From: Burkholderia pyrrocinia
GTDB taxonomy: Bacteria > Pseudomonadota > Gammaproteobacteria > Burkholderiales > Burkholderiaceae
Reading direction: 5' to 3'
DNA: 64,000 bases
NCBI RefSeq assembly: GCF_022809715.1
Contig: NZ_CP094460.1
Location: forward strand, 2,666,001-2,730,000
The notes below the pieces were generated by a model. The model ran no database searches. It was not told the origin of the DNA and saw only the letters and a list, made by a program, of their open reading frames with translations. The translations under genes were made by a program, and so were the position numbers. Shown here piece after piece: positions 22,121-37,643 of the stretch; position 1 is the stretch's first letter; each line of letters begins with the position of its first letter.

Positions 22121-22138
22121 CTGTTGCTCCCGCAACAG
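22121..22138. promoter_or_regulatory. Sigma-54 enhancer site (UAS), copy 1
   Basis: Perfect inverted repeat CTGTTGC-TCCC-GCAACAG, 85 bp before the -24 element at 22223. The same repeat with another spacer is found at 28231-28248. This is the probable binding site of the bEBP encoded at 23111. Confidence 0.75.
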
Positions 22139-22222
22139 ACGCAAGCACATGAATCGCGCCGAGCGAATCGCGCACGGTGCGTACACGCGGTGGTGCAGGC
22201 ATGCGATGCACGCGTACCCGGC

Positions 22223-22238
22223 TGGCACGATTGCTGCT
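22223..22238 (+). promoter_or_regulatory. Sigma-54 (-24/-12) promoter
   Basis: TGGCACGATTGCTGCT has GG and GC exactly 10 bp apart and an almost perfect -24 box. It lies 72 bp before the aldolase-like gene and should drive that gene and the activator gene behind it. Confidence 0.78.
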
Positions 22239-22309
22239 GATCCGGTTGCCGTGCGTCGCGGCGTTGCGACGCGAGCCCATCCGTTCACCCGATCAAGGAA
22301 ACCGAACTC

Positions 22310-22990
22310 ATGTCAGTCACCCAAGCCATCGACAGCGGCGAACTCGTGGCATTCGTCGAGCGCGCCACGCGCGAATTCGCGCAAGCCGCGCGCGTGCTGA
22401 AGGAAACGCGCACGCTGTCCGCGACCAACACGTTCCAGGCGTTCCAGCGCGTGCCAGGCACGGAACTCGTCGTCGCGCTGTCGGCGCCGAGCCCGTGGGC
22501 CGCGTCGCAGGAGATCCAGCCCGTCGTCGTTACGCTCGACGGCGACGTGCTGCACGGAGACGCGCGCGCGGGCGGCAACGGGCCGCGCTACGCGGGTGTA
22601 TTCCGCGAAGTGCCGGAAGTCGACGTCGTGATTCACGTGCACGGCCCGTATCTCGGCGCATGGGCGAGTGCGCATCGTCCGCTGCCGATCCGCTACGCGC
22701 CGGCCGCGCGCTACACGCGGGCCCGCGAGATCCCGGTCTATGTCGATCGCCGTCCGGGCGAGCCGCGCTTCATCGTCGACACGATCCGGCGCGCCCCCGA
22801 GGTGCCGGCGATCATCGAGGCGAACGGCGGCGCGACGTTCTGGGGCAAGTCGATCCTCGACGTGTCGAAGTACATCCTGATCCTCGAGGAAGCCGCGTAT
22901 TTCCAGGCGCTCGCGGAGCCGCTCGGCGGCTCGCTCGAATTCGGGCCGGGCGCGCTCGAGCAGCAATGGAAAATGACCGGCCTCGCGTGA
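22310..22990 (+). CDS. Divergent class II aldolase/adducin-family protein
   Basis: 226 residues with the class II aldolase fold: LDGDVLHGDARAGGNGPRYAGVFR followed by VVIHVHGPYLGAWASAH (H109 and H111, two of the three zinc ligands). The usual catalytic Glu of the SSE-T-P motif is N90 here. The third zinc His, normally in NHG, is replaced in ANGGATFWG (G173). Canonical fuculose-phosphate-type aldolase chemistry is thus doubtful; it may be a decarboxylase, an isomerase-like relative, or a binding protein. It is under a sigma-54 promoter and 120 bp upstream of the activator gene, which puts it in the organosulfur regulon. Confidence 0.82.
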   Translation: MSVTQAIDSGELVAFVERATREFAQAARVLKETRTLSATNTFQAFQRVPGTELVVALSAPSPWAASQEIQPVVVTLDGDVLHGDARAGGNGPRYAGVFREVPEVDVVIHVHGPYLGAWASAHRPLPIRYAPAARYTRAREIPVYVDRRPGEPRFIVDTIRRAPEVPAIIEANGGATFWGKSILDVSKYILILEEAAYFQALAEPLGGSLEFGPGALEQQWKMTGLA

Positions 22991-23110
22991 CGCTGCGCAG
23001 CGGGCGGCGCAATCCGGCCGCCGTCATACCGATAGCTCGATGAATTGGTTCGTGGCCGGCGCGCGCCTTGCTATCGTCGAACCTTCCCCGTTCAACACGC
23101 CGGTCGTGCC

Positions 23111-24229
23111 ATGGCCATCTTCAGCTTGCCGGACCCGACTTCGCACGCGATCACGATTCGTGCGAAGGCGCTGACGTTCGACGATCCCAAATCGCGGGTG
23201 CTGCTCGAACGCATCCAGCTCGTCGCGCCGAGCGATGCGACGGTGCTCGTCACCGGCGAGAGCGGCACAGGCAAGGAGCTGATCGCGCGCCTCGTGCATT
23301 CGCTGAGCGAGCGCCATGAAGGCCCGTTCGTCGCAGTCAACTGCGGCGCGTTTTCGGAGACGCTGATCGAAAGCGAGCTGTTCGGCCACGAGCGCGGCGC
23401 GTTTACCGGCGCCATCAACAGCCAGCCGGGCTGGTTCGAATCCGCGAATCGCGGCACGCTCTTTCTCGACGAGGTCGGCGACCTGCCGCTATCCGCGCAG
23501 GTCAAGCTACTGCGCGTGCTGCAGGAGCGCGAGGTGACGCCAGTCGGCTCGCGCAAGACCGTCAAGATCGACGTGCGGCTCGTTGCGGCGACCAACGTGA
23601 ATCTCGAAGCCGCGGTGCGTGCGGGAAATTTCCGCGAAGACCTGTACTACCGGCTCAACGTCGTGAAACTGAGCCTGCTGCCGCTGCGTGAGCGGCCCGG
23701 CGACATTGCGCCGCTGATCGAACACTTCATCGACATCTATGCGAAGCGGCTGCGCGTGACCGCGCCGACGCTGACGGACGCCGCGCGTGCGCGCCTGCAT
23801 GCGCACGCGTGGCCGGGCAACATCCGCGAACTCGAGAACGTGATCCACCATGCGGTGCTGATCTGCGCGGGCGGCGCGATCGACGTCGGCGACCTGCAGT
23901 TCTCCGCGCTGTCGCTTGCACCCGATACAGCCGACGCGCACGGCGCGGCTGCCGCGCCGCCGCGCCGCGCACGCGACGTGGCCGAAGCGACCGATGCGCT
24001 GCGCCATGCAGTGGTCGAACTGCTGGATCTCGGCACGCCGGCGCTGTGGCAGCACATCGAGGACACCGTGTACCGCAGCGTGTTCGACTACAGCGAGCAC
24101 AACCAGCTGCGCATGTCGCGCCTGCTCGACCAGTCGCGCAACATCGTCCGCGCACGGCTCGCGCAGCTCGGCATCCTGAAGCCGCGCGACGCGGGCGACG
24201 CCGACGCGCGGCTGCGCCGTCAGGCGTGA
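23111..24229 (+). CDS. SfnR-like sigma-54-dependent activator without N-terminal sensor domain
   Basis: 372-residue bacterial enhancer-binding protein. The AAA+ domain begins at about residue 20: Walker A GESGTGKE (49-56), the sigma-54 contact loop GAFTGA (96-101) and Walker B LFLDEVGD (117-124). A Fis-type HTH follows at the C-terminus (HNQLRMSRLLDQSRNIVRARLAQLG). There is no receiver, GAF or PAS domain, as in SfnR, the activator of dimethyl-sulfone genes in Pseudomonas. Such proteins are usually controlled by their own level. Three sigma-54 promoters and matching UAS repeats lie nearby, so it is the likely activator of this region. Its 3' end overlaps the convergent permease gene by 10 bp. 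Confidence 0.92.
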   Translation: MAIFSLPDPTSHAITIRAKALTFDDPKSRVLLERIQLVAPSDATVLVTGESGTGKELIARLVHSLSERHEGPFVAVNCGAFSETLIESELFGHERGAFTGAINSQPGWFESANRGTLFLDEVGDLPLSAQVKLLRVLQEREVTPVGSRKTVKIDVRLVAATNVNLEAAVRAGNFREDLYYRLNVVKLSLLPLRERPGDIAPLIEHFIDIYAKRLRVTAPTLTDAARARLHAHAWPGNIRELENVIHHAVLICAGGAIDVGDLQFSALSLAPDTADAHGAAAAPPRRARDVAEATDALRHAVVELLDLGTPALWQHIEDTVYRSVFDYSEHNQLRMSRLLDQSRNIVRARLAQLGILKPRDAGDADARLRRQA

Positions 24230-25008
24230 TCGCGCCAGCGCAGCGCGCGCTGCGCGATCCGCTCGCATAACGCACTCATACCGACGGCCAGCGCCGTTAC
24301 GCCCAGCACGCACACGAGCAGCACGTCGGCACGCGCGCCGGCCTGCGCGTTCTGCATCAGGCTGCCGACGCCCGCACCCGCGTTGAACAGCAGCTCGCTG
24401 CTGGTCGCCGTGATCCACGCGAACGGCACGGCCTGCAGCACGCCGGCGAACAGGTCGGGCAGCGCGCCCGGAATCAGCACGTCGCGCCACAGGCCGATGC
24501 GCGTCAGGCGATACGACTGCGCCAGTTCGACATAGCGCGGATCGACGCGGCGCAGCCCGTCGAAGCTGGCGGTAGTCATCGGGTAGAACGCGGCGAGCGC
24601 GATGATGAACACCTTCGCGAATTCGCCGGTGCCGGCCCACAGGCTCAGCAACGGAATCAGCCCGAGCAGCGGCACGTAGCGCAGCGCCTGGAACGCCGGT
24701 TCGCCCAGCTTGCGCGCGAGCGTCGAGCGCGCCATTGCCGCACCGAACAGGAGCCCAAACGCGACGCCGAACCCCAGCCCGAGCGTCGTGCGGCGCAGGC
24801 TCGCACCGAGATCGGTCGCGAGTTCGCCGCTGCGGGCGAGTTCGACCAGCGCGGCGCCGACTTGCTGCAACGGCACGAACGCATATTGATGGGCCGCATC
24901 GCCGGACGACGCGAACTGCCAGGCGGCAACCAGCAGGGCCGGCACGACGAGGCCGCGCGCGCGGCGGCGCAGCGGGGCGAGCGAGAGGGCGCGTGTAGCG
25001 AGGGGCAT
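24220..25008 (-). CDS. SsuC-like ABC transporter permease 1
   Basis: 262-residue inner-membrane permease with about six transmembrane helices. The EAA-type loop that contacts the ATPase is present (SYRLTRIGLWRDVLIPGALPDLFAG). It belongs to the taurine/sulfonate/nitrate BPD permease group. It lies 22 bp after a second, different permease gene, so the two probably form a heterodimeric channel. No ATP-binding subunit gene is present in this operon. Confidence 0.88.
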   Translation of the reverse strand: MPLATRALSLAPLRRRARGLVVPALLVAAWQFASSGDAAHQYAFVPLQQVGAALVELARSGELATDLGASLRRTTLGLGFGVAFGLLFGAAMARSTLARKLGEPAFQALRYVPLLGLIPLLSLWAGTGEFAKVFIIALAAFYPMTTASFDGLRRVDPRYVELAQSYRLTRIGLWRDVLIPGALPDLFAGVLQAVPFAWITATSSELLFNAGAGVGSLMQNAQAGARADVLLVCVLGVTALAVGMSALCERIAQRALRWRDHA

Positions 25009-25030
25009 GCCGAAGCGTATCCAGTCAGGG

Positions 25031-25846
25031 TCAGCGCGCCGGCGTCTGCCAGCGCAATGCGTAGCGTTGCGCGAGGGCGATCGAGCGGTCGAGCGCGAAG
25101 CCGATCAACCCGATCGCGGCGACGTCGACGAGCACCACGTCGAGCCGCAGCATCTGCCGGGCCAGTTCCATCATCTGGCCGATCCCGCTGTCCGCGGCGA
25201 GCAGCTCGACCGCGACGAGTGCGAGCCACGCGCGCGCGAGCGCGATCCGGATGCCGGTCAGCAGCGGCGGCAATGCGGCCGGCAGCAGCACGTCGCGCAG
25301 CAGCGCGAAGCGGCCGAGCCCGTAGTGGCGCGCCATCTCGACGAGATCGCGCGGTGCGTCGTGCACGCCCGTGTATGCGGCCAACGCGACCGGGAAGAAC
25401 ACGGCCTTGCCGACGACGACGAGCTTCAGCGGTTCGTCGACGCCGATCAGCAGGATCAGCAGCGGGATCAGCGTGAGCGTCGGCACTTGCCGCAGCAGGT
25501 CGAACGTCGGCCGCAGGTAGTCGGAGAACAGCCGGCTGCGCGCGAGCAGGATGCCGAACGCGGCGCCGCCCGTCGCACCGATCGCGAAGCCGAGTGCGAG
25601 GCGATGCAGCGTGATCAGCAGGTTGTCCCGCAGTTCGCCGGTGTCGATCAGCGTGCGCAGCGTCGCCGCGAGACGGCCGGGTGGCACGACGAGCTGCGGC
25701 GGAAACCAGCGCTGCACGCTCGCGAGCCACCACAACGCGGCGAACGCGACGGGCGTGACCCACCACATCGCCTGCCCGCCGAGCCGTGCGATGCCGGGCA
25801 GGCGGACCGCGTGCGGGCCGTTCGACGCGAGCGCGCGCATCGGCAT
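25031..25846 (-). CDS. SsuC-like ABC transporter permease 2
   Basis: 271 residues, six predicted helices, with the coupling loop ARHYGLGRFALLRDVLLPAALPPLL. Also of the sulfonate/taurine permease group and clearly distinct from its neighbour. ATG 25846 overlaps the stop of the binding-protein gene (ATGA), so the genes are coupled; a second Met two codons later is possible. It would import the ligand captured by the periplasmic protein encoded just upstream. Confidence 0.88.
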   Translation of the reverse strand: MPMRALASNGPHAVRLPGIARLGGQAMWWVTPVAFAALWWLASVQRWFPPQLVVPPGRLAATLRTLIDTGELRDNLLITLHRLALGFAIGATGGAAFGILLARSRLFSDYLRPTFDLLRQVPTLTLIPLLILLIGVDEPLKLVVVGKAVFFPVALAAYTGVHDAPRDLVEMARHYGLGRFALLRDVLLPAALPPLLTGIRIALARAWLALVAVELLAADSGIGQMMELARQMLRLDVVLVDVAAIGLIGFALDRSIALAQRYALRWQTPAR

Positions 25847-26952
25847 CAGCGGCTCGCGACGCGCGATGCGTCGGCGCGCCAGTAGCCGTCGAGGCCGAGC
25901 TGCTTGAGCGCGGTCGACACGAAGGTCGGCGCGAGCAGCGCGTTCACGTCGACCGGCGTGGACGTCAGGCCGGCCTGCCGGCTGTACGCGATGACGTCGC
26001 GGTAGTGACCGGTCAGCGCCGGCGTGAAGAGCGGCGTCCATTGCTCCTTCCACGGCGTCGATTCGTCCGCGTACTCGCGGCGCACGATGCTTTCCGGCTG
26101 GCCGGATGCGCTCAGGATCTTCACGTACGCGTCGCGATTCTGCGGCTGCGAGATCCAGTGCGCGGCGCGCACATAGGCCGTCGCGACGAGCTGCGTGATG
26201 TCGGGGTAGCGCTTCACGAAATCGTCGGACGCCCACAGTTCCGCGCGCATCTTCCAGTCGTCGGGCGCGGTCTTGGTCGACCAGATGATCTTGCCGACGT
26301 TCTTGTCGACGAGCGAATACGCGTCGGACAGCGTGAAGAAGCCGTCGACGCGGCCGGCCGCGACGGCCGCCGCACCGGCCTGCGGATCGAGGTTGTAGAT
26401 CCTGAAGTCGGACAGCTTCAGCCCGTTCTCGGCGAGCAGCTTGCTGAACGTGACTTCCCACGGCCGGCCGCGATTGAGCGCGATGCGCTTGCCCTTGAGA
26501 TCGACGATCGACTTTGCGGTCGAGCCGGCCGGCACGACCAGATACGTGTTGCTGCCGACGCCGCCCGGCACGATCAGGCGCGTATGCGTGCCCGATGCAT
26601 TGACGACGACCGACGGCAGATCGCCGTAGCCCGCGAAATCGATGCTGCCGTTCGTGAACGCTTCGTTGACGAGCGTGCCGACCGCCGCGGTCGACACGGG
26701 CACCCATTGCAGCTTCACGTGCCGCGCGGCGAGCGCCTTCTCGAGCGACTTGTCGGCGTCGATCAGCGCGGACGCGCCAGCATATTGCGTCTTGCCGCCG
26801 CTCGAATAGGCCACGACGGCGATCCGCACGACCTTGGGCGCGTCTTCCGCGTGTGCGGCCGGTGCGGCAAGCGAGGCCGCGGCAAGCGGCAGCGCGGCGA
26901 GCAGCGCGCGCAGCGGGCGGCGCAGCGAGGCGAGGGAGAGCGTGTGCTTCAT
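25846..26952 (-). CDS. SsuA-like periplasmic binding protein
   Basis: 368 residues with a signal peptide ending PAAHAEDAP. It is an NMT1/SsuA-type two-lobed binder: VVRIAVVAYSSGGKTQYAG at the mature N-terminus, GSIDFAGYGDLPSVV, then LKGKRIALNRGRPWEVTFSKLLAENGL and AGRVDGFFTLSDAYSL. This pattern is typical of aliphatic sulfonate/taurine receptors. It is upstream of and coupled to two permease genes. The ligand is probably an organosulfur anion, inferred from the neighbours and the sigma-54 control. Confidence 0.9.
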   Translation of the reverse strand: MKHTLSLASLRRPLRALLAALPLAAASLAAPAAHAEDAPKVVRIAVVAYSSGGKTQYAGASALIDADKSLEKALAARHVKLQWVPVSTAAVGTLVNEAFTNGSIDFAGYGDLPSVVVNASGTHTRLIVPGGVGSNTYLVVPAGSTAKSIVDLKGKRIALNRGRPWEVTFSKLLAENGLKLSDFRIYNLDPQAGAAAVAAGRVDGFFTLSDAYSLVDKNVGKIIWSTKTAPDDWKMRAELWASDDFVKRYPDITQLVATAYVRAAHWISQPQNRDAYVKILSASGQPESIVRREYADESTPWKEQWTPLFTPALTGHYRDVIAYSRQAGLTSTPVDVNALLAPTFVSTALKQLGLDGYWRADASRVASR

Positions 26953-26983
26953 GATGATCCGGATGAGTTGGCGGAAGAAGGGC

Positions 26984-28060
26984 TCACGCACGTTTCTGCA
27001 GCGATGGCCGCAACACGTCGGCGAGCGGACGCGGGTCGATCCAGTCGGCGACATCGAAGTCGGCTTCCAGAAAACCCCAGTCGTGCAGGAACGTCTTGAA
27101 CTCGTCGAGCGCGGCGACCGATTCGTCGTCGAGGTTGACGCCGAGGTGCCGGTGCAACTGGTTACCGTACGCGGCGCGGACCCAGTCGACCGACGACGCG
27201 GTTTCGCCGGCCACGTAGTGCGTGGTTTCGTCGGGATGCGTGCTCGCCCAGTCGCCGGCGGCGACGACGAGCTTCAGGAAGCCGGCGACGATGTCCGGGT
27301 GGTTCGCGAGCACGTCCGCGTTTACGGTCAGCGGACGCGGCGTGCCGTTGTTGTTGCGGATCGAACGTTCCGGATGAAAGCCGATGTCGATCACGACGTG
27401 CGCGCCGATCAGTTGCGCGATCTCGAGGCCCGTCGAGCCCTTCACGTAGATCGCGTCGACCTCGCCGCGCAGCAGCGCGCCGGCTTCGGCCGCGTACAGC
27501 GCGCGGCTCGAAAAGCCGTGCGGCGATGCGAACAGGCTCGCCGCGCGCGGGGGCCCGACGGTCTGCAGCGTGCGCGCGCATACGTCGACGAGCTCGACGT
27601 CGCGCGTGGTCAGCCCGTCGAGGCTCAGCGCGTTGACGAAGCCGCGCAGCGCCGACGCGCGAAAGATGTCGATGCGATCGTCGGGGCGGCTCGGGATCGC
27701 GATCCGGCGCCCGCGCAGCGCTTTCACGGAACGGATGCCCGACTCGGGCCGCGCGAGGATCAGTTGCGATTCGTCGACCCACGACAGCCCGATCACGCGC
27801 GTGTTCGCGTCGTTCGAGCGCGCCCACATCGCGGGGATGCTGCCGCCCTGGCGAAACGACTGCGCCAGCGTGTGGTCGCTGATCGACGACACGTCGTGAC
27901 GCGTGGCGCCGCGCGACGAGCGGATCGCGACGCCGTCGGCCGACGTCTCGCCGTTGAGCCAGCCGAGATGCACGGCGATGCCGAGCGGGGTCGGCACGGG
28001 CGATCGCGCGTACCAGAACGTCTGCTGCTTGTCCGATGACGAATCGGGCCTGTCTGTCAT
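26984..28060 (-). CDS. DszB-like protein lacking the catalytic Cys and His (paralogue 1)
   Basis: 358 residues, no signal peptide. Related to the sulfinate desulfinase DszB and to the two paralogues at 29730 and 32825. The DszB catalytic residues are C27, H60 and R70. Here the Cys in FWYARSPVPTPLG is S20, the His position is I60, and R70 is kept (SFRQGGSIPAMW). It therefore should not be able to act as a DszB-type desulfinase. It may be a cytoplasmic binding or sensing protein, or use other chemistry. It is first in the ABC permease operon, 80 bp downstream of a minus-strand sigma-54 promoter, with AGGGA before the ATG. Confidence 0.85.
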   Translation of the reverse strand: MTDRPDSSSDKQQTFWYARSPVPTPLGIAVHLGWLNGETSADGVAIRSSRGATRHDVSSISDHTLAQSFRQGGSIPAMWARSNDANTRVIGLSWVDESQLILARPESGIRSVKALRGRRIAIPSRPDDRIDIFRASALRGFVNALSLDGLTTRDVELVDVCARTLQTVGPPRAASLFASPHGFSSRALYAAEAGALLRGEVDAIYVKGSTGLEIAQLIGAHVVIDIGFHPERSIRNNNGTPRPLTVNADVLANHPDIVAGFLKLVVAAGDWASTHPDETTHYVAGETASSVDWVRAAYGNQLHRHLGVNLDDESVAALDEFKTFLHDWGFLEADFDVADWIDPRPLADVLRPSLQKRA

Positions 28061-28140
28061 GTGTGAGATTCCCTGTCTGGGTAAGCGTGGTCGATGCACG
28101 GTCGCGCACGGTGGTGTCGCCCGCGCGGGCCGGTCAACGT

Positions 28141-28156
28141 TGCAAGTTCCGGGCCA
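28141..28156 (-). promoter_or_regulatory. Sigma-54 (-24/-12) promoter for the ABC operon
   Basis: Read on the minus strand the sequence is TGGCCCGGAACTTGCA: GG and GC are 10 bp apart, with one mismatch to TGGCACG-N4-TTGCA. It lies 80 bp before the start of the DszB-like gene 1. Confidence 0.78.
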
Positions 28157-28230
28157 GCGAATGGAAACGGCGAGGTCGCAGACGGCGCGGGCATCGCGTG
28201 CGATGCGCGGTGCGCGAGCCGGCGCATCGC

Positions 28231-28278
28231 CTGTTGCGTCAGCAACAGTCGCGTCGGCCGCTGTTGCGCATGCAGCAC
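28231..28278. promoter_or_regulatory. Tandem sigma-54 enhancer sites between divergent promoters
   Basis: A perfect copy, CTGTTGC-GTCA-GCAACAG (28231-28248), is followed by a degenerate one, CTGTTGC-GCAT-GCAGCAC (28261-28278). The centre-to-centre spacing is 30 bp, about three helical turns. The pair lies between the -24/-12 promoters at 28141 (minus) and 28427 (plus) and can serve both. The perfect copy matches the site at 22121. Confidence 0.75.
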
Positions 28279-28426
28279 CGGTGCGGCCGATGCAGCAGCG
28301 CGGCACGGGCCTGCTTCGGCGTGAACGGCGACGATCGGCGCGCGCCGCCCGATTGCCGTGGACGCCCGACCCGTAAGGCGCCGTGTGCATTGATCGGCGG
28401 CCACGCACGCGCAGTGGCGAGCGCGT

Positions 28427-28442
28427 TGGCACACCGCGTGCT
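28427..28442 (+). promoter_or_regulatory. Sigma-54 (-24/-12) promoter for the desulfination/TonB operon
   Basis: TGGCACACCGCGTGCT has the GG and GC at 10-bp spacing and a perfect TGGCAC. It lies 70 bp upstream of the monooxygenase start and can drive the whole plus-strand operon to the TonB-dependent receptor. Confidence 0.78.
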
Positions 28443-28512
28443 TTACAGCGCAGCACACGCGCGGCACGCAGGTGCCGCACGCAATCCGAACGGGCCGACA
28501 AGGAGAATCCCG

Positions 28513-29685
28513 ATGGCTGTTGAATTTCTGTGGCGCCTGCCGATGCACGGCGACGGCCGGCGCGCGCACGACCTGCATACGCGCGGCGAATGGAACCGCC
28601 AGCACGCATCGCGCGTCGCGCCGAAAGTTGGCGACGACGATTTCGGCTACATCGACTATCTGTCGCAGGTCGCGCGCGCGGCCGACATCGCCGGCTTCCA
28701 CGGCGCGCTGATTCCGATTTTCCGCTTTACCGAGGAGCCTTGGGTCGTCGCGGCCGCGCTGGCGCGCGAGACGCGCCGGCTGCGGCTGCTGATCGCGCTG
28801 CAGCCGCACTTCGTGCATCCCGTCTATGCGGCGCAGATGGCCGCGAGCCTGCAGCGGATCAGCCGCGGCCGCGTCGAGTGGAACGTCGTCACGGGCGGCG
28901 GCGGCCCCGACCAGCGCGCGTACGGCGACTTCATCGATCACGACAGTCGTTATGCGCGCACCGACGAATTCCTCGATGTCGTGAAGGGCGTGGCGGCCGG
29001 CGAGCCGTTCACGTTCGACGGCCGCTTCTACCGCGTCGAAGCCGGCGGCCTGCTGCCGCCGCTGAGCGGCCAGAAGCCGCCGCGTCTCTATCTGGCCGGC
29101 GCGAGCGATGCCGCGCTCGCGGTCGCCGCGAAACACGGCGACGTGCACCTGAGCTGGGGCGAGCCGCTCGCGAAACAGAAGGAGGTGATCGATGCGGCGC
29201 GCCGCGCGCTCGACCGGCAGAACGCCGAGCGCGACCTACGCTTCGGCATGCGCATCGACGTTCTGGCGCGCGAGACCGAGGAACAGGCGTGGGCCGAGCT
29301 GCGGCAGATGTTCGCGACGGTGGGCGCGTCGACGCGCAACGGCTTCGGCGGGCGCGGCGAATCGTCGGAATCGGTCGGCGCGAAACGCCAGTTCGCGCTG
29401 CACCAGGGCAATACGCAGCACTTCGACGACCTGATCGTCGGCCCGAACCTGTGGGCCGGGATGTCGCAGATCCGCGGCGGCCCCGGTTGCGTGATCGTCG
29501 GCAGCCACGAACAGGTGGCCGAACGGCTCGCGGAATACGTGGACATCGGCGTATCGACGTTCATTCTCGCCAGCAACCCGCATCTCGAGGAGGCGTACCG
29601 CGTGGGCGAGGAAGTGCTGCCGCTCGTCGACGGCGCGCTGAACGCGCGCGGCACGCATGCGGCGCTGCGCGTGGCCGGCGCCTGA
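28513..29685 (+). CDS. SsuD-like FMNH2-dependent sulfonate monooxygenase
   Basis: 390-residue luciferase-like flavin monooxygenase. FLWRLPMHGDGR at the N-terminus and FILASNPHLEEAYRVGEEVLPLV at the C-terminus are close to SsuD/MsuD signatures, and DHDSRYARTDEFLDVVKG is the substrate/flavin segment. It should cleave a C-S bond using reduced FMN and oxygen, releasing sulfite or a sulfinate. No flavin reductase gene is in this operon, so FMNH2 must come from elsewhere. AAGGAGA precedes the ATG. It is first in the sigma-54 operon and directly upstream of a DszB-like desulfinase, which suggests sequential attack on the substrate. Confidence 0.92.
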   Translation: MAVEFLWRLPMHGDGRRAHDLHTRGEWNRQHASRVAPKVGDDDFGYIDYLSQVARAADIAGFHGALIPIFRFTEEPWVVAAALARETRRLRLLIALQPHFVHPVYAAQMAASLQRISRGRVEWNVVTGGGGPDQRAYGDFIDHDSRYARTDEFLDVVKGVAAGEPFTFDGRFYRVEAGGLLPPLSGQKPPRLYLAGASDAALAVAAKHGDVHLSWGEPLAKQKEVIDAARRALDRQNAERDLRFGMRIDVLARETEEQAWAELRQMFATVGASTRNGFGGRGESSESVGAKRQFALHQGNTQHFDDLIVGPNLWAGMSQIRGGPGCVIVGSHEQVAERLAEYVDIGVSTFILASNPHLEEAYRVGEEVLPLVDGALNARGTHAALRVAGA

Positions 29686-29729
29686 GCGCGGCGGCAATCC
29701 TCCGCATTCCAACGACAAGGACACTCACC

Positions 29730-30776
29730 ATGACGACACTCGCTGCGCAGGCCACGGCCTGCGACGCACTCTGGTACACGCGCTGCCCGGTGCCGACCGC
29801 GCTCGGCATCGCCGTGCATCGCGGCTGGTTCGACGAGGAGTTCGGGCCGGACGGCATCGCGCTTCATTCGCTGCAGGAGACGGCCGACGCCAACAAGCGC
29901 GAATCGCATTTCGATCACAGCCTGCCGCACTCGTTCCGGCAGGGCGGCAACATTCCCGCGCTATGGGCGCGGGCACGCGGCGCGGATACGTGCGTGATCG
30001 GCCTGTCGTGGACCAACGAATTCCAGGCGATCGTCACGCTGCCCGAGCGCGGCATCCGCACCGCGCGTGATCTGCGCGGCCGGCGGCTCGGGCTGCCGCG
30101 CCATCCGATCAGCATCGACTTCTGGCGCGCGGCCGCGTTGAAGGGCTTCCTGAGTGCGCTCGAACTGGAAGGGCTCGGCCATGGCGACGCCGAATGGGTC
30201 GACTTGCCAGACACACGCGAGCGCCGCACCGGGCCAGCATCGTTTGCGCGCGGCCCGCACGAGTACGGGCTCGAGATCGCGGCGCTCGTGCGCGGCGACG
30301 TCGACGCGGTGTTCGTGAAAGGCGTCGCGGGTCTCGAAACCGTGCACCTGATCGACGCACAGGTCGTCATCGATCTCGGCGCGCACCCCGATCCGCTCGT
30401 GCGGATCGGCAACGGCACGCCGCGCACGCTGACCGTCGATCGCGCACTGATCGACGCGCGCCCCGATCTCGTGAGCCGCTTCCTGTCGGTCGTGGTCGGC
30501 GCGGGCGACTGGGCCACGCGCCATCCGGCAGAGACGGTGGCCTACATCGGCCGCGAAACGCGCGCGTCCGACGAGTGGGTGCGCTACGCATACGGCGCGG
30601 ACGTGCACCGGCATCTGGAAACCGGGCTCGCGCCGACGTCGATCGACGGACTGGTCGCGTTCAAGGATTTCCTCGTCGAGTGGGGGTTTCTCGAGCGCGA
30701 TTTCGATGCGCGCGCATGGGTCGATCCGGCGCCGTTCACGCAGATCGACCGGCATCGTCATGCGTGGGTCGCGTAG
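29730..30776 (+). CDS. DszB-like sulfinate desulfinase (paralogue 2)
   Basis: 348 residues, cytoplasmic. Aligns with DszB (2'-hydroxybiphenyl-2-sulfinate desulfinase), which hydrolyses an aryl sulfinate to a phenol and sulfite. All three catalytic positions are kept: C19 in WYTRCPVPTALG, H60 in ESHFDHSL and R70 in SFRQGGNIPALW. The fold is that of a periplasmic-binding protein; automatic pipelines may therefore call it a binding protein, but it has no signal peptide and sits in a catabolic operon. It lies 44 bp after the monooxygenase gene. Confidence 0.85.
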   Translation: MTTLAAQATACDALWYTRCPVPTALGIAVHRGWFDEEFGPDGIALHSLQETADANKRESHFDHSLPHSFRQGGNIPALWARARGADTCVIGLSWTNEFQAIVTLPERGIRTARDLRGRRLGLPRHPISIDFWRAAALKGFLSALELEGLGHGDAEWVDLPDTRERRTGPASFARGPHEYGLEIAALVRGDVDAVFVKGVAGLETVHLIDAQVVIDLGAHPDPLVRIGNGTPRTLTVDRALIDARPDLVSRFLSVVVGAGDWATRHPAETVAYIGRETRASDEWVRYAYGADVHRHLETGLAPTSIDGLVAFKDFLVEWGFLERDFDARAWVDPAPFTQIDRHRHAWVA

Positions 30777-30809
30777 CGTGCCGCGGCGCGTCATTGCAAG
30801 GAGTCGAAC

Positions 30810-31622
30810 ATGACAGGGCTGACGATCGAATACGGCGTGCCGCCCGCGCGCCGGCACGCGGCGCGCGCCGCGCCGCGTGCGGCTGCCGCGGTTGCGGTGG
30901 CTGCGGTACGACCGCCGTCGGCGGTGCCGTCTGCGCGCACGGACGCGCGGCCCGCGCAGACGAACGGGTGGCGTGGCGCGGGCGCAGTGGCACTCGCCGT
31001 CGCGACGCTGCATGCAGGTATCGCCTTATTGGCGGCGCGTGCGCCCGCCGAACCGCCCGTGCAACCGCCGAGGCCGTTGCCGATGACGGTCGAGCTGACG
31101 CGACCGCCTGAACCGTTGCCGCAGGCCGCGCATCCGCCGCCGCCGACCGTGCAGCCGAAGCCGCTGCAGCAGGCGCCGACCCCGCCGAAGCCACGCGCGG
31201 CCGTTCCGCATCAGGCGGTCGCGCCGGCTGCCGTGCCACGGGTGGCGCGAGAAGCAGCGGCCGCGGCGCCCGCACTGGCACCGACCGCTGCCGCGCCGAC
31301 CACCCCAGCGCAGGTCCCCGCGCCTGCCGCACCGGTGCGCGAAATCGCGCCGATCGGCGACGCGGCTTACCTGCGCAACCCGGCGCCCGACTATCCGGCG
31401 TTCGCGCAGGACCAGGGCTGGGAAGGGCGCGTCGTGCTGCGCGTGCATGTGCTCGCGAACGGCACGCCCGATTCCGTCGACGTTCGTACGAGCAGCGGCC
31501 GCCGCATGCTCGACAACGCGGCGGTGAACGCCGTGAAGCGCTGGACGTTCGTGCCCGCGAAGCGCGGCGACGAGGCTGTCGACGGCTGGGTCAACGTGCC
31601 GATCGATTTCAAGCTGGGCTGA
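30810..31622 (+). CDS. tonB: TonB energy transducer
   Basis: 270 residues. One transmembrane anchor at about residues 55-75 (AGAVALAVATLHAGIALLAA) is followed by a Pro/Ala-rich periplasmic linker (about 78-185) and the TonB C-terminal domain from about 190 (APDYPAFAQDQGWEGRVVLRVHV, then GRRMLDNAAVNAVKRWTFVPA). It transmits proton-motive force to an outer-membrane receptor. With exbB and exbD next and a receptor four genes on, it forms a private energising complex within the organosulfur operon. AAGGAG lies before the ATG. Confidence 0.94.
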   Translation: MTGLTIEYGVPPARRHAARAAPRAAAAVAVAAVRPPSAVPSARTDARPAQTNGWRGAGAVALAVATLHAGIALLAARAPAEPPVQPPRPLPMTVELTRPPEPLPQAAHPPPPTVQPKPLQQAPTPPKPRAAVPHQAVAPAAVPRVAREAAAAAPALAPTAAAPTTPAQVPAPAAPVREIAPIGDAAYLRNPAPDYPAFAQDQGWEGRVVLRVHVLANGTPDSVDVRTSSGRRMLDNAAVNAVKRWTFVPAKRGDEAVDGWVNVPIDFKLG

Positions 31623-31663
31623 CCCGCCGGGCAGCCTGCCACATTTTTCAAGGAACTCACATC

Positions 31664-32380
31664 ATGAACGGTATTCCGACCACCTTCATCGTTCAGGGCG
31701 CGCTCTGGCTGCTCGCCGTCTTTTCCGTCGTCACGTGGACGCTGATCGTTGTGAAGGCGATCCAGAGCCTGCGGGCGAGCGCGCGCAACCGGCGTTACGT
31801 CAGCGCGTTCTGGGCCGCGAACAGCTTCCACGAGGCGGCCGCGCTCGACGGCGCGAACAGCCCGGTAGGCGAACTCGCCGCGACCGGCTTCGACGCGTTG
31901 CGTCGCGCCGACGAGAGCAGCGCGCACGATCTCGAACACAGCTGGAGCCGCCACGACCTGCTCGAACGCCATCTGCGGCAGCAGATCCACAACGCGCGCC
32001 GGCGCGAGGAGGCGGGACTCGCGGTGCTCGCGTCGATCGGCAGCACCGCGCCGTTCGTCGGGCTGTTCGGCACCGTGTTCGGCATCATCCACGCGCTGAC
32101 CGCGATCACGCACAGCGCGTCGGCGAGCATCGACGTCGTCGCCGGGCCGATCGGCGAGGCGCTCGTCGCGACCGGGATCGGCATCGCGGTCGCCGTGCCG
32201 GCCGTGCTCGCGTACAACTTCTTCGTGCGCCGCGTGAAGGCCGCGTCGGCCGATCTCGATGCGTTCGCAACCGACTTCGTCACGCTCGCGCAGAAGGCCG
32301 GCTTCCGCGTGCCGGCCGCCGCACCTGCCGCCACGCCGGTACACCGTGCCGGCGAAACCCGTCAGGAGGCGTTCGCATAA
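31664..32380 (+). CDS. exbB: ExbB proton-channel protein
   Basis: 238 residues of the MotA/TolQ/ExbB family, with one N-terminal helix (FIVQGALWLLAVFSVVTWTLIVV) and two later helices (VLASIGSTAPFVGLFGTVFGI and ALVATGIGIAVAVPAVLAYNFF). With ExbD it forms the proton-driven motor for TonB. The stop codon overlaps the exbD start by one base. It lies inside the sigma-54 operon rather than in a general iron-uptake cluster. Confidence 0.95.
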   Translation: MNGIPTTFIVQGALWLLAVFSVVTWTLIVVKAIQSLRASARNRRYVSAFWAANSFHEAAALDGANSPVGELAATGFDALRRADESSAHDLEHSWSRHDLLERHLRQQIHNARRREEAGLAVLASIGSTAPFVGLFGTVFGIIHALTAITHSASASIDVVAGPIGEALVATGIGIAVAVPAVLAYNFFVRRVKAASADLDAFATDFVTLAQKAGFRVPAAAPAATPVHRAGETRQEAFA

Positions 32381-32790
32381 TGGCTTTCTCGTCCTCTTCC
32401 GACAACGACGACGTGCTTAGCGAAATCAACATCACGCCGCTCGTCGACGTGATGCTCGTACTGCTCGTCGCGTTCATCGTCACGGCGCCGCTGCTCAACA
32501 ACGCGGTGCACGTGAATCTCCCGAACACCGTCGCTACTTCGCCGGCCGACCGCAAGCCGAACGTCACCGTGAGCGTCGACGACAAGGGTGTCGTGTATCT
32601 CGACAAGCGCGTGGTCGCGCTCGCCGAGGTACCCGCCGAGCTGGCCGCGCTGAAGGCCGGCCGGCCCGACGTCGCGCTCGACCTGCAGGCCGACGAGCAC
32701 GTGCCGTACGGCACCGTCGCGAAGCTGATGGCCGCGATCGAGCATGCGGGGATCACGCGGCTGTCGGTGCTTACCGCGCCGCGCGGCTGA
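32380..32790 (+). CDS. exbD: ExbD motor protein
   Basis: 136 residues with one helix near the N-terminus carrying the essential Asp (ITPLVDVMLVLLVAFIV), then a periplasmic domain (NVTVSVDDKGVVYLDKRVV, LDLQADEHVPYGTVAKLM). It pairs with ExbB in proton conduction. The start overlaps the exbB stop (TAATG). Complete by length. Confidence 0.95.
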   Translation: MAFSSSSDNDDVLSEINITPLVDVMLVLLVAFIVTAPLLNNAVHVNLPNTVATSPADRKPNVTVSVDDKGVVYLDKRVVALAEVPAELAALKAGRPDVALDLQADEHVPYGTVAKLMAAIEHAGITRLSVLTAPRG

Positions 32791-32824
32791 TGGGCCTTTC
32801 ACGACTCTTTTTCCGAACGCATCC

Positions 32825-33901
32825 ATGAGCACCACGGCTTCACACAACGTCCGTTCGATCTGGTACACGCGCTGTCCGGTGCCGACGCCGCTCGGCATCG
32901 CCGCGCATCTAGGCTGGCTCGACAGCGAATTCGCCGGCGACGGCATCACCGTGCACGCGCTGCAGGAGAACCAGCACGCGGCGCTGCATCATGCGCATGT
33001 CGATCATTCGCTCGACAACGCGTTCCGGCAGGGCGGCAGCATTCCCGCGCTGTGGGCACGCGCGGCCGGCGCGGACACGCGCATGGTCGCGCTGACCTGG
33101 GTCGACGAGGCGCAGGCGATCGTCGCGCTGCCGGAAACCGGCCTGAAGCAGCCGAAGGACCTGCGCGGACGCCGCATCGGCCTGCCGCGCCGCGACGGCG
33201 AGCGCATCGACATCTTCCGCGCGGCGGCGCTGCGCGGCTTCGTCAGCGCACTGTCGCTCGACGGGCTTGGCCCCGGCGACGTCGAATGGGTCGACGTGCC
33301 CGCGTCGAACCTGCGCGTGCCCGTATCGACACCGGTCAGCCGCGACGCGGCATTCAACCATCCCGCGAGCCTGTCGAGCCGGCGGCTCTATGCGGCCGAG
33401 GCGGCGGCGCTCGTGCGCGGTGACGTCGACGCGATCTACGTGAAGGGTTCGCTCGGGCTGGAAACCGCGCACCTGATCGGCGCACAAGCGGTCGTCGACA
33501 TCGGTTTTCATCCCGATCCGCAGATCCGCATCAACAACGGCTCGCCGCGGCCGCTGACCGTCAATGCGTCGACGCTCGAGCGCCATCCCGACATCGTCAG
33601 CCGCTTCCTTGCGCGCGTGACCGATGTCGAAGACTGGGCGCGCGAGCATGAGCAGGAAGTGCTCGGCTATCTCGGCCGCGAGACGGGGTCGGGTCACGAC
33701 TGGCTGCGGCTTGCCTACGGCGCCGACGTCCATCGGCGGCTGCGCACGGATCTCGACGACGCGTCGATCGCCGCGATCGACGATTTCAAGCGCTTCCTGG
33801 TCGACTGGCAGTTCCTGCCTGCCGACTTCGACGTGCACGCATGGATCGACCGGCGCGCACTCGACGGCATCGCGACGCTGTCTCGCGACGCCGCGCGGTG
33901 A
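32825..33901 (+). CDS. DszB-like sulfinate desulfinase (paralogue 3)
   Basis: 358 residues, closely related to the protein at 29730. The DszB catalytic set is complete: C17 in WYTRCPVPTPLG, H58 in HAHVDHSL and R68 in AFRQGGSIPALW. The middle region KDLRGRRIGLPRRDGERIDIFRAAALRGFVSALSLDGL is shared with paralogue 1 more closely than with paralogue 2, so duplication and divergence gave different specificities. It lies between exbD and the MFS gene, and its stop overlaps the next start. It has no signal peptide. Confidence 0.85.
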   Translation: MSTTASHNVRSIWYTRCPVPTPLGIAAHLGWLDSEFAGDGITVHALQENQHAALHHAHVDHSLDNAFRQGGSIPALWARAAGADTRMVALTWVDEAQAIVALPETGLKQPKDLRGRRIGLPRRDGERIDIFRAAALRGFVSALSLDGLGPGDVEWVDVPASNLRVPVSTPVSRDAAFNHPASLSSRRLYAAEAAALVRGDVDAIYVKGSLGLETAHLIGAQAVVDIGFHPDPQIRINNGSPRPLTVNASTLERHPDIVSRFLARVTDVEDWAREHEQEVLGYLGRETGSGHDWLRLAYGADVHRRLRTDLDDASIAAIDDFKRFLVDWQFLPADFDVHAWIDRRALDGIATLSRDAAR

Positions 33902-35115
33902 GCGTGCCGGCACGCGTCGTCGACGCATGGCGGCGCGAGCGTTTCACCGGCGGCTTCATGCTGCTGGCGCTCGCGAGCGGCACGACGATCAGCATGGCGC
34001 AGCTCGCGACGACGCTGTACGCGTTGGCGCTCGGCGTCGACAGCACGCGGCTCGGCGTCATCGCCGCGATGGAGCCGCTCGGCATCGCGTTGATGACGTT
34101 GCCGGCCGGGCTGCTCGTCGCACGCTACGGTGCGCGGCGCGTGTACTTCGCCGCGAGCTTGGGGCCGATGCTGCTCAATCTCGTCGTGCCGTTCACCGGC
34201 GCGTGGTCGCTGATCGCACTCACGCAAGGGTTGATCGGGCTGTGCATCCCGTTCCGGATCGTGTCGATCAACGGCGTGTTCCTCGCGCGTCTCGCGCAGA
34301 TCGGCCTGGCGCGCGCGGGCTGGTATCGCGCGGCCATGTCGGTCGGGACGGGCATGGTTGGGCCGTGGCTCGCGAGCTGGCTAACCGGCGCGCACGGCGC
34401 GGTCGCGACGTTTTGCGCGGCGTCGGCGAGCTTCGCGGGCATGGCGCTGTTCAGCCGAATGCTGCTCGGCGACGCGGAGCAGCCGCCGCGCCGTGCGCGG
34501 CACGAAACTGGCGGGCTGCGCAAGTTGCTTGCGCTTGCCTGGAGCCACGATGTACGCGAGCAGCTTGTGCTGGAGGCCGTGAACAGCGCGACACGCTCGC
34601 TCGCCGGCACGTATACGGTGGTGCTCGCGATTCAGTCACTCGGACTGTCGCAGACGCGCGCCGTCGCGCTGCTGACATTGCAGGGTGCCGTTGCGGTGAT
34701 TGCCCTGTTCGGGCTCGGACATGTCGCGCAACGGATGACGGAGCGTCGTTGCCATGCCCTCAGTCTCGCGGGCGGCATCGCCGGGCTGCTCGCACTCGGC
34801 CTCGCGCGCGACGCGTGGATCGTCGGCGCGGGGCTCGCCGCGCTGTGCGCCGGTTCGTCGATGCTGCATCTCGTCAACATGCAGCATCTGGGCCGCCATC
34901 CTGCCGACAAGAGCCAGGTGTCGAGCCTCTACAACCTCGCGTCGATGACCGGCGCGTTCTGCGGCCCGCTGGCCGGTAGCGCGCTCGCGCCGTTCGTCGG
35001 ATTGCCGGTCGTGTTTCTGTGCTGGCTGCCCGTGGTCGTGCTGGTTGCGTTCGCGCTGCGGCTTGCGCACGTGCGTCGCGGCGCGCTGCGACCGTTGCCC
35101 GCGAAACTGTCCTGA
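33898..35115 (+). CDS. MFS transporter of the organosulfur operon
   Basis: 405 residues, about 12 transmembrane helices. Motif-A-like sequence appears as LVARYGARRVYFAASLG. The start is a GTG that overlaps the stop of the desulfinase gene (GTGA), giving MSVPARVVDAWRRERFTGG. The direction of transport cannot be read. It could import the substrate, complementing the ABC system, or export a desulfinated product that cannot be used as carbon source. Confidence 0.88.
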   Translation: MSVPARVVDAWRRERFTGGFMLLALASGTTISMAQLATTLYALALGVDSTRLGVIAAMEPLGIALMTLPAGLLVARYGARRVYFAASLGPMLLNLVVPFTGAWSLIALTQGLIGLCIPFRIVSINGVFLARLAQIGLARAGWYRAAMSVGTGMVGPWLASWLTGAHGAVATFCAASASFAGMALFSRMLLGDAEQPPRRARHETGGLRKLLALAWSHDVREQLVLEAVNSATRSLAGTYTVVLAIQSLGLSQTRAVALLTLQGAVAVIALFGLGHVAQRMTERRCHALSLAGGIAGLLALGLARDAWIVGAGLAALCAGSSMLHLVNMQHLGRHPADKSQVSSLYNLASMTGAFCGPLAGSALAPFVGLPVVFLCWLPVVVLVAFALRLAHVRRGALRPLPAKLS

Positions 35116-35327
35116 TCGCCTTCGGGGCGGATGTCGCGCGCTGCGGCGGTGTTGCGTGGCAAACAGTTCGCCGCTCCTCACAGATGCGTATGCAGCAACA
35201 CGCGAGCCGCACGGGCGCCGGAAGCCCCGCGCGACGGTCTTTTCGATGCTGGCATCCGAATTGCAATACAGAACCCGTGCGTCGCGCACGCACGTGCGTT
35301 CAACCGATCAAACAGGATGACTCATCG

Positions 35328-37643
35328 ATGTTCAGGAAAAAACTAATCGTCACCGCGCTGGGGGGACTGCTGACGGGCGGCACCGTATCGTTGCCCGCGT
35401 GGGCAGAGGACGGCGTGGCGGCAGCGGAGGTGCCGGACGCGAAGCCGGCACCACAGGCGTCGGATGATGCAACTGCGGCCGCGCCGAAGGCGACCCATGC
35501 GAATCGCGGCGCGGCCGCACGCGAAACGAATCTCGGCACGGTGACCGTGACCGCGCGCCGGCGCAAGGAAAGCATCCAGGACGTGCCGGTCGCGGTGAGC
35601 GCGCTGAGTGGCGACGCGATCAAGAACAACGAGTTGCGCGTGATCAACGACGTGACGAAGTACGTGCCGAACTTCACCGGGCAATCGACCGAGGGCCGCG
35701 AGCGGCCGCGCTGGTTCCTGCGCGGTGTCGGCAGCAACGATCCGTCGGACCTGTCGCTGAGCCCGATCGGTGTGTACTTCGACGACGTGTACATCAACAG
35801 CGTGTTCGGGCAGGGCTTTCCGCTGTTCGACCTCGATCGCATCGAGGTGCTGCGCGGGCCGCAGGGCACGCTGTGGGGCAAGAATACCGTCGGCGGCGCG
35901 CTCAGCATCACGTCGCAGAAGCCGACCTTCGACGTGAGCGGCTACGGCAAGCTCGGCCTCGGCCAGTACAACAGCCGGCTTGCGGAAGCCGCGATCGGCG
36001 GGCCGATCGGCAAGAACGACGTGCTGGCCGCGCGCGTGTCGGTGTATCACGAGAATGCCGACAGCTTCTACACGAACACCGCGCAGCAGGGGCGCTTCGG
36101 CGGCTTTCACGACAACGCGGTGCGTTTCCAGGTGCTGGCCGTGCCGACTCCGGACACCGATTTCCTGTTCAACATCCACGGCCGCAACTACACGGGCGGC
36201 GGCAATGCGTGGCACGCGGAAGGCGCGGGGCGGGGCGGCGCGAACCAGTTCGGCTTCGTCGGATCGACCGATCCGTACACGGTGTCGCTCAATGCGCCGT
36301 CGAGCGATCACATCTCGTCGTGGGGCACGTCGCTCACCGCGCACTGGCGCATCAACCCGGCGGTGTCGCTGACGTCGATCACCGCGTTCGAAGGGCTGCA
36401 CCGCTGGTACCAGGACGACGAGGACTATTCGCCGTTCGATGCGGCACGTTCGCATGACCGCCTGTCGAGCCGCCAGTTCTCGCAGGAGTTCCGGCTCGAA
36501 TCGCCGCAGAACGACCGGCTGAGCTGGCTCGTCGGCACGCATCTGTTCACCGAGCAACTGGCCGAGCAGGGCGCCGGCGGCGGCCTGCCGGGCTCGCCGT
36601 CGCCCGCGTTCTACCATCTGACCGACCTCACGCAGCACACGCAGAGCGTGGCGATCTTCGGCAGCATCAAGTACCGGTTCACCGACCGCTTCAACGTGAC
36701 GGGCGGGCTGCGTTACACGATCGAGCGCAAGACCATCAACCTGACGGGGCTGCAGGGAGCGGGCAATGTGACGTTCAGCGATCCGAACAGCTGGTGGTCG
36801 CCGTCGTCGGTGTCGTCGCCGCTCGCGGTCAGCGCGCAGCAGAACCAGACGAACACGTGGCGCGCGCCGACCTGGGATCTTACGCCCGAATACGCGCTCA
36901 GCAACAACGTGCGCGCGTATTTCCGCTATGCGCGCGGCTTCCGCTCGGGCGGTTACAACGGCAACGCATATACGCAGAGCACGGTGTCGACCGTTTCGCC
37001 CGAGTACCTGACCGACTACGAGGTCGGCATCAAGAGCGAGTGGTTCGACAAGCGGCTGATCGTCAACGCGAGCGTGTTCCACTACGACTATCGCGACATC
37101 CAGGTGTTCGCGCTCGCGCCGAACCCGTTCGGCGGGCCGCCGGTGTCGACGCTGTCGAACGCGGGGCAGGGTCGCGCGGACGGCTTCGAGCTGGAGCTGA
37201 AGGCACAGCCGGTCAACAGCCTCTACCTGTTCGCGAACCTCGGGATGCTGAACACGCGCTTCACGGAGTTCCGCTACGTGCCGACCGCCGTCGGCAACTC
37301 GTTCGCGCGCTCGCCGCATACGACGCTGAACGCGGGCTTCGACTATCGCGTTCCGGTGCCATTCGGCACGTTGACGGCAGGTGGCGACGTGAACTACCGC
37401 AGCCGCGAATACTTCAGCGCGACGCGGCAGACGATGCCGCAGCTCTGGCAGGGCGGTTATACGGTGCTGAATGCGCATGTGTCGTACACGACGCCGAACC
37501 AGAAGTACATCGTGACGGGCTACATGACGAACCTTACGAACAAGGTTTACAAGAAGCTCGAGCTGCTGCCGTCGTATGGCGCGTATCCGGTGCTGTACGG
37601 CGATCCGCGCACGGTCGGGATCACGCTGACCGCGAAGATCTGA
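35328..37643 (+). CDS. TonB-dependent outer-membrane receptor (organosulfur operon)
   Basis: 771 residues. A signal peptide ends near AWAED. A Pro/Ala stretch leads to the TonB-box-like GTVTVTARRRKESIQDVPVAVSAL and the plug (about 80-190, with VPNFTGQSTEGR and IEVLRGPQGTLWGKNTVGGAL). A 22-strand barrel follows, ending GDPRTVGITLTAKI. It actively imports ligands too large or scarce for porins. Located at the end of an operon with tonB-exbB-exbD and desulfination enzymes, its ligand is more likely an organosulfur compound than a siderophore. A 212-bp gap before it may hold an additional promoter. Confidence 0.93.
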   Translation: MFRKKLIVTALGGLLTGGTVSLPAWAEDGVAAAEVPDAKPAPQASDDATAAAPKATHANRGAAARETNLGTVTVTARRRKESIQDVPVAVSALSGDAIKNNELRVINDVTKYVPNFTGQSTEGRERPRWFLRGVGSNDPSDLSLSPIGVYFDDVYINSVFGQGFPLFDLDRIEVLRGPQGTLWGKNTVGGALSITSQKPTFDVSGYGKLGLGQYNSRLAEAAIGGPIGKNDVLAARVSVYHENADSFYTNTAQQGRFGGFHDNAVRFQVLAVPTPDTDFLFNIHGRNYTGGGNAWHAEGAGRGGANQFGFVGSTDPYTVSLNAPSSDHISSWGTSLTAHWRINPAVSLTSITAFEGLHRWYQDDEDYSPFDAARSHDRLSSRQFSQEFRLESPQNDRLSWLVGTHLFTEQLAEQGAGGGLPGSPSPAFYHLTDLTQHTQSVAIFGSIKYRFTDRFNVTGGLRYTIERKTINLTGLQGAGNVTFSDPNSWWSPSSVSSPLAVSAQQNQTNTWRAPTWDLTPEYALSNNVRAYFRYARGFRSGGYNGNAYTQSTVSTVSPEYLTDYEVGIKSEWFDKRLIVNASVFHYDYRDIQVFALAPNPFGGPPVSTLSNAGQGRADGFELELKAQPVNSLYLFANLGMLNTRFTEFRYVPTAVGNSFARSPHTTLNAGFDYRVPVPFGTLTAGGDVNYRSREYFSATRQTMPQLWQGGYTVLNAHVSYTTPNQKYIVTGYMTNLTNKVYKKLELLPSYGAYPVLYGDPRTVGITLTAKI

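Follow-up and report, generated by a model that had tools for sequence, protein, structure and literature searches.

A sigma-54-type island of Burkholderia pyrrocinia that joins DszB-like proteins to a TonB complex and receptor: a candidate module for organosulfur uptake and desulfurization

The 64,000 nucleotides of Burkholderia pyrrocinia DNA considered here (contig NZ_CP094460.1, positions 2,666,001 to 2,730,000, that is C2:2666001-2730000 of a genome of three contigs and 7.69 Mb; ‘the window’ below) hold an island of genes for DszB-like proteins, an SsuD/MsuD-like monooxygenase, a TonB-ExbB-ExbD complex and a TonB-dependent outer-membrane receptor (TBDR). The closest described systems each resemble a part of it. 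SfnR lacks a receiver domain, and the Pseudomonas sfn/msu regulon (SfnR, MsuEDC, SfnG) has, like the island, a sigma-54-dependent activator and an SsuD/MsuD-like monooxygenase; the island activator shares the SfnR-type trait of a sigma-54 domain without a receiver. However, a DszB-like enzyme, a TonB complex and a receptor are all absent from the passages on the regulon that were consulted. The SsuABC/SsuD system shares with the island an SsuA-like binding protein, SsuC-like permeases and an SsuD-like monooxygenase with a sulfonate motif, but the island proteins score under the SsuA, SsuC and SsuD cut-offs, no SsuB or SsuE is recognised in the island, and a Cys, a His and a Tyr of SsuD are replaced by Thr, Asp and Asn. 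DszB of the Rhodococcus 4S pathway (2'-hydroxybiphenyl-2-sulfinate desulfinase) is related in sequence to DszB2 and DszB3, which have its active-site residues, and in fold to DszB1; the island differs from the 4S genes in its low identity (24% for DszB1), in having three paralogs, one with Ser27, and Gram-negative uptake genes, and in having no recognised dszC-like gene.

For the uptake genes, two Pseudomonas loci presumably come near: sftP/ats of P. putida, a TonB-dependent receptor beside sulfur-scavenging genes, and PA0192-tonB2-exbB1-exbD1 near atsA of P. aeruginosa, a receptor with a TonB complex, both of which we take to serve sulfatase-type chemistry. Neither PA0192 nor exbB is named in the main text of PMC12581299, a study of P. 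aeruginosa under sulfur starvation. DdvT of Sphingobium SYK-6 and its TonB complex provide TonB-dependent uptake of a non-iron aromatic, a lignin-derived biphenyl, but unlike the island the system is described in its abstract without sulfur chemistry (PMC6874591). The parts of the island are of known kinds; it stands apart in how they are assembled, in its proposed wiring through sigma-54 and in DszB paralogs that have repeatedly lost the Cys. The gene combination is undescribed in the titles and abstracts of the open-access literature searched, which is no proof of its absence in print.

We read the island as a sigma-54-controlled module for the uptake and desulfurization of a bulky or scarce organosulfur anion, and give this reading a probability of about 0.6. 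Low sulfate would cause the receiver-less activator to bind TGTTG-N6-CAACA sites and to drive four sigma-54 promoters, those of the operon that encodes it, the monooxygenase operon, dszB1 with the ABC genes, and the receptor gene. The receptor would take the anion across the outer membrane, powered by the operon's own TonB-ExbB-ExbD complex, and passage through the inner membrane could be by the SsuA-like protein and the two permeases (with an ATPase encoded elsewhere), by the major facilitator superfamily (MFS) carrier, or by both. In the cytoplasm the SsuD/MsuD-like enzyme would cut the C-S bond of a sulfonate, and DszB2 and DszB3, as predicted desulfinases, would free sulfite from a sulfinate.

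The gene content of the island was established by assigning families against Pfam and NCBIfam cut-offs, with start codons picked by position and ribosome-site context (Table 1). A sequence-only reading of this DNA had described an eight-gene array from the monooxygenase to the TBDR, and all eight genes are present in that order, on the + strand at 28513-37643, each above the cut-off of some Pfam family. The TonB complex does lie inside the organosulfur operon, as claimed, with tonB-exbB-exbD between dszB2 and dszB3. Of the several overlapping starts reported in this span there are just two, exbB/exbD (1 base) and dszB3/MFS (4 bases); the remaining gaps from the monooxygenase gene to the MFS gene are 33-44 bp, and 212 bp separate the latter from the TBDR gene. 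The island is wider than that array, extending over about 22122-37643. Divergent from the monooxygenase gene, on the - strand from 28060 down to 24220, are the genes for DszB1, an SsuA-like binding protein and two SsuC-like permeases, and leftmost are a class II aldolase-like gene and the activator gene, whose NCBIfam matches, among those listed, are all under cut-off. The third DszB copy, with its Ser27, the sigma-54 activator and the ABC importer had been missed by the earlier reading.

The genes are inherited together. In a genus-wide sample of 65 genomes that includes the one studied here, a TBDR ortholog (limit E 1e-100, scoring confined to no more than the 16 best candidates of each genome) is found in 21 and a dszB2 ortholog (93% identity or more, as for exbB) in 20, all of which have the TBDR; the other 44 have neither. 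The one genome with the TBDR only, G454, is 82% complete and has pieces of dszB1 and dszB3. An exbB ortholog is present in 19; the two TBDR-bearing genomes without it are G454 and G444, the latter being, by its coordinates, the source of locus L051. Of the 399 genomes of an order-wide draw, 7, this one among them, have a strong match to dszB3 (E below 1e-50).

A scan of named genomes, in which the best 80 of 506 DszB relatives gave 76 distinct loci that were mapped with the window proteins, places the cluster in a wider setting. DszB2 is 92-98% identical to its counterparts in twelve Burkholderia loci (L041-L052), which we take to be mostly from cepacia-complex species. The order dszB2-tonB-exbB-exbD-dszB3 is found in 11 of the 76 loci (Burkholderia 7, Paraburkholderia 3, Jeongeupia 1), and four further contigs start inside tonB and continue with exbB, exbD and dszB3. 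All three TonB complex genes are present in 22 of the loci, including those of Methylovorus, Methylobacillus and Methyloversatilis, with a weak tonB match at L105. The gene-neighbourhood survey proposed earlier has thus found the order again in Paraburkholderia and Jeongeupia, and since other genera share it and within the genus its genes are passed on jointly, the arrangement is not due to chance: the island is one heritable unit. Several draft Burkholderia contigs end soon after dszB2 or begin in tonB or exbD (L042, L043, L047, L052, L068-L071, L077), perhaps due to the Pro/Ala-rich stretch of tonB, so that draft genomes can hide the cluster. A 4.3-kb contig binned as Rudaea (L055) carries a Paraburkholderia-like dszB1-monooxygenase-dszB2 arrangement and is perhaps misbinned.

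Table 1. Genes and candidate promoter elements of the island, in window coordinates
Feature	Position	Strand	Remarks
Palindrome TGTTG-N6-CAACA	22122..22137		candidate activator site before aldolase/activator genes
Sigma-54-type -24/-12 element	22223..22238	+	TGGCACGATTGCTGCT
Class II aldolase/adducin-family protein	22310..22990	+	226 aa; PF00596, 58 bits
Sigma-54 enhancer-binding activator without receiver	23111..24229	+	372 aa; start codon chosen; Sigma54_activat and AAA lid domains
SsuC-like ABC permease 1	24220..25008	-	
SsuC-like ABC permease 2	25031..25846	-	
SsuA-like periplasmic binding protein	25846..26952	-	signal peptide judged by eye
dszB1, DszB-like	26987..28060	-	Ser at Cys27, Ile at His60
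Sigma-54-type -24/-12 element	28141..28156	-	TGGCCCGGAACTTGCA; before dszB1
Palindrome	28232..28247		TGTTGCGTCAGCAACA; between dszB1 and monooxygenase gene
Sigma-54-type -24/-12 element	28427..28442	+	TGGCACACCGCGTGCT; before monooxygenase gene
SsuD/MsuD-like flavin-dependent monooxygenase	28513..29685	+	390 aa
dszB2, DszB-like	29730..30776	+	Cys27/His60/Arg70 retained
tonB	30810..31622	+	TonB_C 82 bits
exbB	31664..32380	+	MotA/ExbB domain over cut-off
exbD	32380..32790	+	ExbD 98 bits
dszB3, DszB-like	32825..33901	+	Cys27/His60/Arg70 retained
MFS transporter	33898..35115	+	GTG start overlaps dszB3 stop
Sigma-54-type -24/-12 element	35250..35265	+	TGGCATCCGAATTGCA; before TBDR gene
TBDR	35328..37643	+	TonB-dependent outer-membrane receptor, 771 aa

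The candidate promoters are conserved along with the genes. Sigma-54-type -24/-12 elements were scored with a weighted consensus of our own. The exact palindrome TGTTG-N6-CAACA has four sites in the 7.69-Mb genome (two for the reversed control), of which two are at island promoters and the other two lie in coding DNA. The site at 22122 is paired with the element at 22223, and that at 28232 with the elements at 28427 (+) and 28141 (-). The first position is shared by 10 of the 12 loci L041-L052 (not L051 and L052), and in the gap between dszB1 and the monooxygenase gene of loci L041-L058 the palindrome and the + element are found in 18/18 and the - element in 16/18. Related palindromes lie before dszB2 in Methylophilus and before the binding-protein gene in Methylovorus; altogether 46 palindromes are found in the 76 loci, a set with many near relatives, against 0.7 expected from a first-order Markov simulation. 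A relaxed genome scan allowing two mismatches (299 matches, 420 for the control) was of no use.

At the TBDR gene, -24/-12 scores of 19.5 or more are found in 11 of 12 Burkholderia loci and in all five Paraburkholderia-group loci (including one labelled Burkholderia sp. Ax-1719), and also in Massilia, Duganella and Jeongeupia; none of 500 simulated stretches reached 20. The hexamers of this element are largely constant across loci and the spacers vary. Methylophilaceae elements score 17-18, and L051, where the TBDR gene stands straight after dszB2, has no such element. The 212-bp gap and a sigma-54-type element of its own make it probable that the TBDR gene is a separate transcript. The sequence-only reading had named a lack of co-transcription as counting against it; for the receptor, the promoter evidence points that way, yet to the same promoter class as that of the operon. 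That the activator responds to sulfur supply is suggested by its gene company and by analogy with Pseudomonas, where msu is reported to group with sfnR (PMC8234197) and where sulfur starvation of P. aeruginosa is reported to raise SfnR1/MsuCDE (PMC12581299), an analogy only.

The receptor and its TonB complex could instead be an iron-siderophore system that merely adjoins sulfur genes. The nearest named families of the TBDR are siderophore receptors, in the PDB it matches receptors for pesticin, siderophores and heme, and some of its relatives are labelled ‘iron complex outermembrane receptor’ by their sources. However, its NCBIfam scores are all under cut-off (174.5 of 223.5 bits for the siderophore receptor model TIGR01783), and the Fur box that the earlier reading had named as contrary evidence gives no signal at three promoters, where 8-9 of 19 positions match a Fur consensus against a background of about 9. 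The TBDR also co-occurs with dszB2, its sigma-54-type element is conserved, and tonB-exbB-exbD lies within the dszB2/dszB3 operon. Iron uptake as the principal role of the receptor was rejected on the Fur-box null, the co-occurrence and the promoter element, and a siderophore system is the least probable of the alternatives considered here, and a very improbable one. Co-occurrence, synteny and shared promoter type support a TBDR tied to the organosulfur operon and not to iron. Pseudomonas, some P. aeruginosa among them, has receptors 43-46% identical to the TBDR (P0027-P0041).

The monooxygenase is nearest to MsuD (271 bits) and SsuD (246 bits), with SfnG at 108 and DszA at 49 bits, and falls far under the SsuD cut-offs (315 of 518 bits for TIGR03565, 323 of 510 for NF001939). 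In a residue comparison of 35 rows, the sulfonate motif of one Trp and two Arg is retained in every one of the 23, the window protein among them, that score over 600 bits; exchange of these residues is reported to have abolished MsuD activity (PMC8234197). Their retention favours a sulfonate over a sulfone for this step, and a sulfonate is the likely ligand. The sulfated natural product that the earlier reading also suggested has no support, as no sulfatase gene was identified in the island. SsuD-chain positions 55, 229 and 332 (Cys, His and Tyr, the Cys and Tyr having roles in SsuD) read Thr, Asp and Asn throughout these 23 rows, a set of replacements that hints at an altered pocket. This hint is tempered by the report that activity was little affected when the equivalent His of SsuD was exchanged (PMC8234197).

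For the inner membrane, the SsuA-like and SsuC-like proteins fall under the SsuA and SsuC cut-offs. Massilia-type loci have an ATPase gene beside the permease gene; among the matches listed, the nearest homolog of this ATPase in the B. pyrrocinia genome is at C2:244671 (54%), and none is listed near the island. In Methylophilaceae (L066, L067 and L076) the receptor gene is followed by two large open reading frames (ORFs) of an ABC-transporter family and then by dszB2, and the Methyloversatilis member of this family has ABC_membrane and ABC_tran domains, the make-up of exporter-fold half-transporters.

The one Pfam family that the DszB-like proteins reach is the broad NMT1 family, and their solved relatives by sequence, at E 0.001 or better, are DszB entries only (2de2/2de3). 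DszB2 and DszB3 retain Cys27, His60, Arg70 and Gly73, and have no signal peptide by eye. These proteins might not be desulfinases but cytosolic relatives of SsuA that bind sulfonate, or might use this fold for a different reaction (decarboxylase or Thi5-like), in which case all sulfur would be freed by the SsuD/MsuD-like enzyme. The retention of C27, H60, R70 and G73 in 110 of 116 rows whose best match is dszB2 or dszB3, and the top rank of DszB among sequence matches and, in the case of DszB1, among fold matches, speak against this, and we consider it rather unlikely.

DszB1 is a different case. A regulatory domain of the same fold may act in cyanobacterial CmpC/NrtC, which are among its fold matches. 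Ser replaces the catalytic Cys27 in 23/23 copies of dszB1, yet the gene is under purifying selection. In DszB the C27S exchange is reported to inactivate the enzyme (PMC6100217). DszB1 keeps the fold and most likely binds the ligand without turnover. Copies with Ser27 are also found outside the dszB1 clade (L076, L081, L083, L105, L107 and L115, with L083 left out of the tree), and a quick tree suggests four or more separate origins for such paralogs. A tentative extension, about which we are doubtful, is that DszB1 is a desulfinase turned cytosolic ligand sensor, its pocket kept, that would report organosulfur to the sigma-54 activator or the ABC importer, such dead-enzyme paralogs having evolved four or five times beside active copies. 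A further DszB-like branch in Rhizobiales, Comamonas, Variovorax and Devosia (L080, L082, L085, L087, L089, L092, L094, L097) has no TonB genes in its loci, and the L080 member of a neighbouring family is a peptide-type ABC binding protein.

The island could also serve to degrade an organosulfur pollutant or plant compound for carbon, with sulfur release incidental and the MFS carrier exporting the desulfurized residue. The class II aldolase family, which 13 of the 24 DszB loci chosen as representatives contain, would fit such a role, as would the MFS carrier, which belongs to the clusters of several genera (Burkholderia, Massilia, Duganella, Jeongeupia, Sphingomonas and more). However, no ring-cleavage set is recognised among the annotated neighbours (neighbouring genes being annotated in part), and the alcohol-dehydrogenase gene directly to the right of the island lies near it in 6 of the 12 receptor-bearing Burkholderia loci but was not seen in loci of other genera. 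We consider a carbon-source role very unlikely. To the left of the island, the ORF at 12041-14095 resembles, as judged by eye, a cysteine desulfurase whose N-terminal part is long and Ala/Pro-rich.

Several observations weigh against a dedicated uptake and desulfurization module. No flavin reductase or ABC ATPase is recognised in the island. The class II aldolase, whose gene lies between the palindrome and sigma-54 element and the activator gene, has no place in the model. The identity of DszB1 to DszB over the structural alignment is just 24%. Genomes G435 and G439 carry another DszB-like gene, 50% identical, without this TBDR, and in the Sphingomonas and Asticcacaulis loci the promoter elements are not seen at the receptor gene. 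The remaining points concern the TonB complex. Loci L051, L057 and L058, in which the TBDR gene follows dszB2 directly, keep both genes without the tonB-exbB-exbD-dszB3-MFS block; ExbBs 57-59% identical to that of the island are found in genus genomes that lack the island (G414, G445 and G456); and the ExbBs of L176 and L177, which adjoin other receptors without recognised sulfur genes, fall inside the ExbB group of the clusters.

These last points bear on how specialised the complex is. The TonB C-terminal, MotA/ExbB and ExbD domains of the island triad are all over cut-off, and TolQ/TolR models outscore ExbB/ExbD models for the island ExbB and ExbD, with all of these scores under cut-off. 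Elsewhere the genome has two more tonB-exbB-exbD triads (with weak TonB matches of 25-27 bits) and further exbB genes. In a tree with the other scored ExbBs of this genome and six carrier genomes, the cluster ExbBs form a separate group (support 95/96); the ExbB of Panacagrimonas (L105) is of another type. Earlier ExbB trees had suggested a sulfur-only Ton lineage, an idea undone by the placement of L176 and L177 within the group and by the kin in genomes without the island, although a cluster-only grouping is not rejected outright (p-AU 0.054). By these placements the Ton lineage is specialised rather than sulfur-only.

Nor does every receptor have a complex at hand. Genome-wide, the best ExbB match reaches 57% for L051 but 41% for L057 and L058. 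No tonB genes are present in the fetched Massilia, Duganella and Sphingomonas loci, and Massilia has a 63% ExbB in another locus. The Ton genes of Massilia and of Burkholderia Bp8963 proved not to lie just outside the fetched locus but elsewhere, beside other receptors. Since the block is missing from L051, L057 and L058 and tonB from these other loci, a private complex would be helpful but not obligatory, and it looks accessory. The argument that a private energising complex implies active uptake holds in that the receptor is linked to the operon, and is weakened in its strong form by the loci without the complex.

More than 95% of soil sulfur is reported to be organic (PMC4267179). That such a module recurs, equipped with a receptor and a Ton motor of its own, would mean that some organosulfur sources are worth active transport across the outer membrane, and the genes and promoters of the island provide a short list with which such sources may be found. 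The paired Cys-bearing and Cys-less DszB copies offer a clean test of how an enzyme may turn into a protein that binds or senses, and they extend the known range of DszB-like proteins beyond fuel desulfurization.

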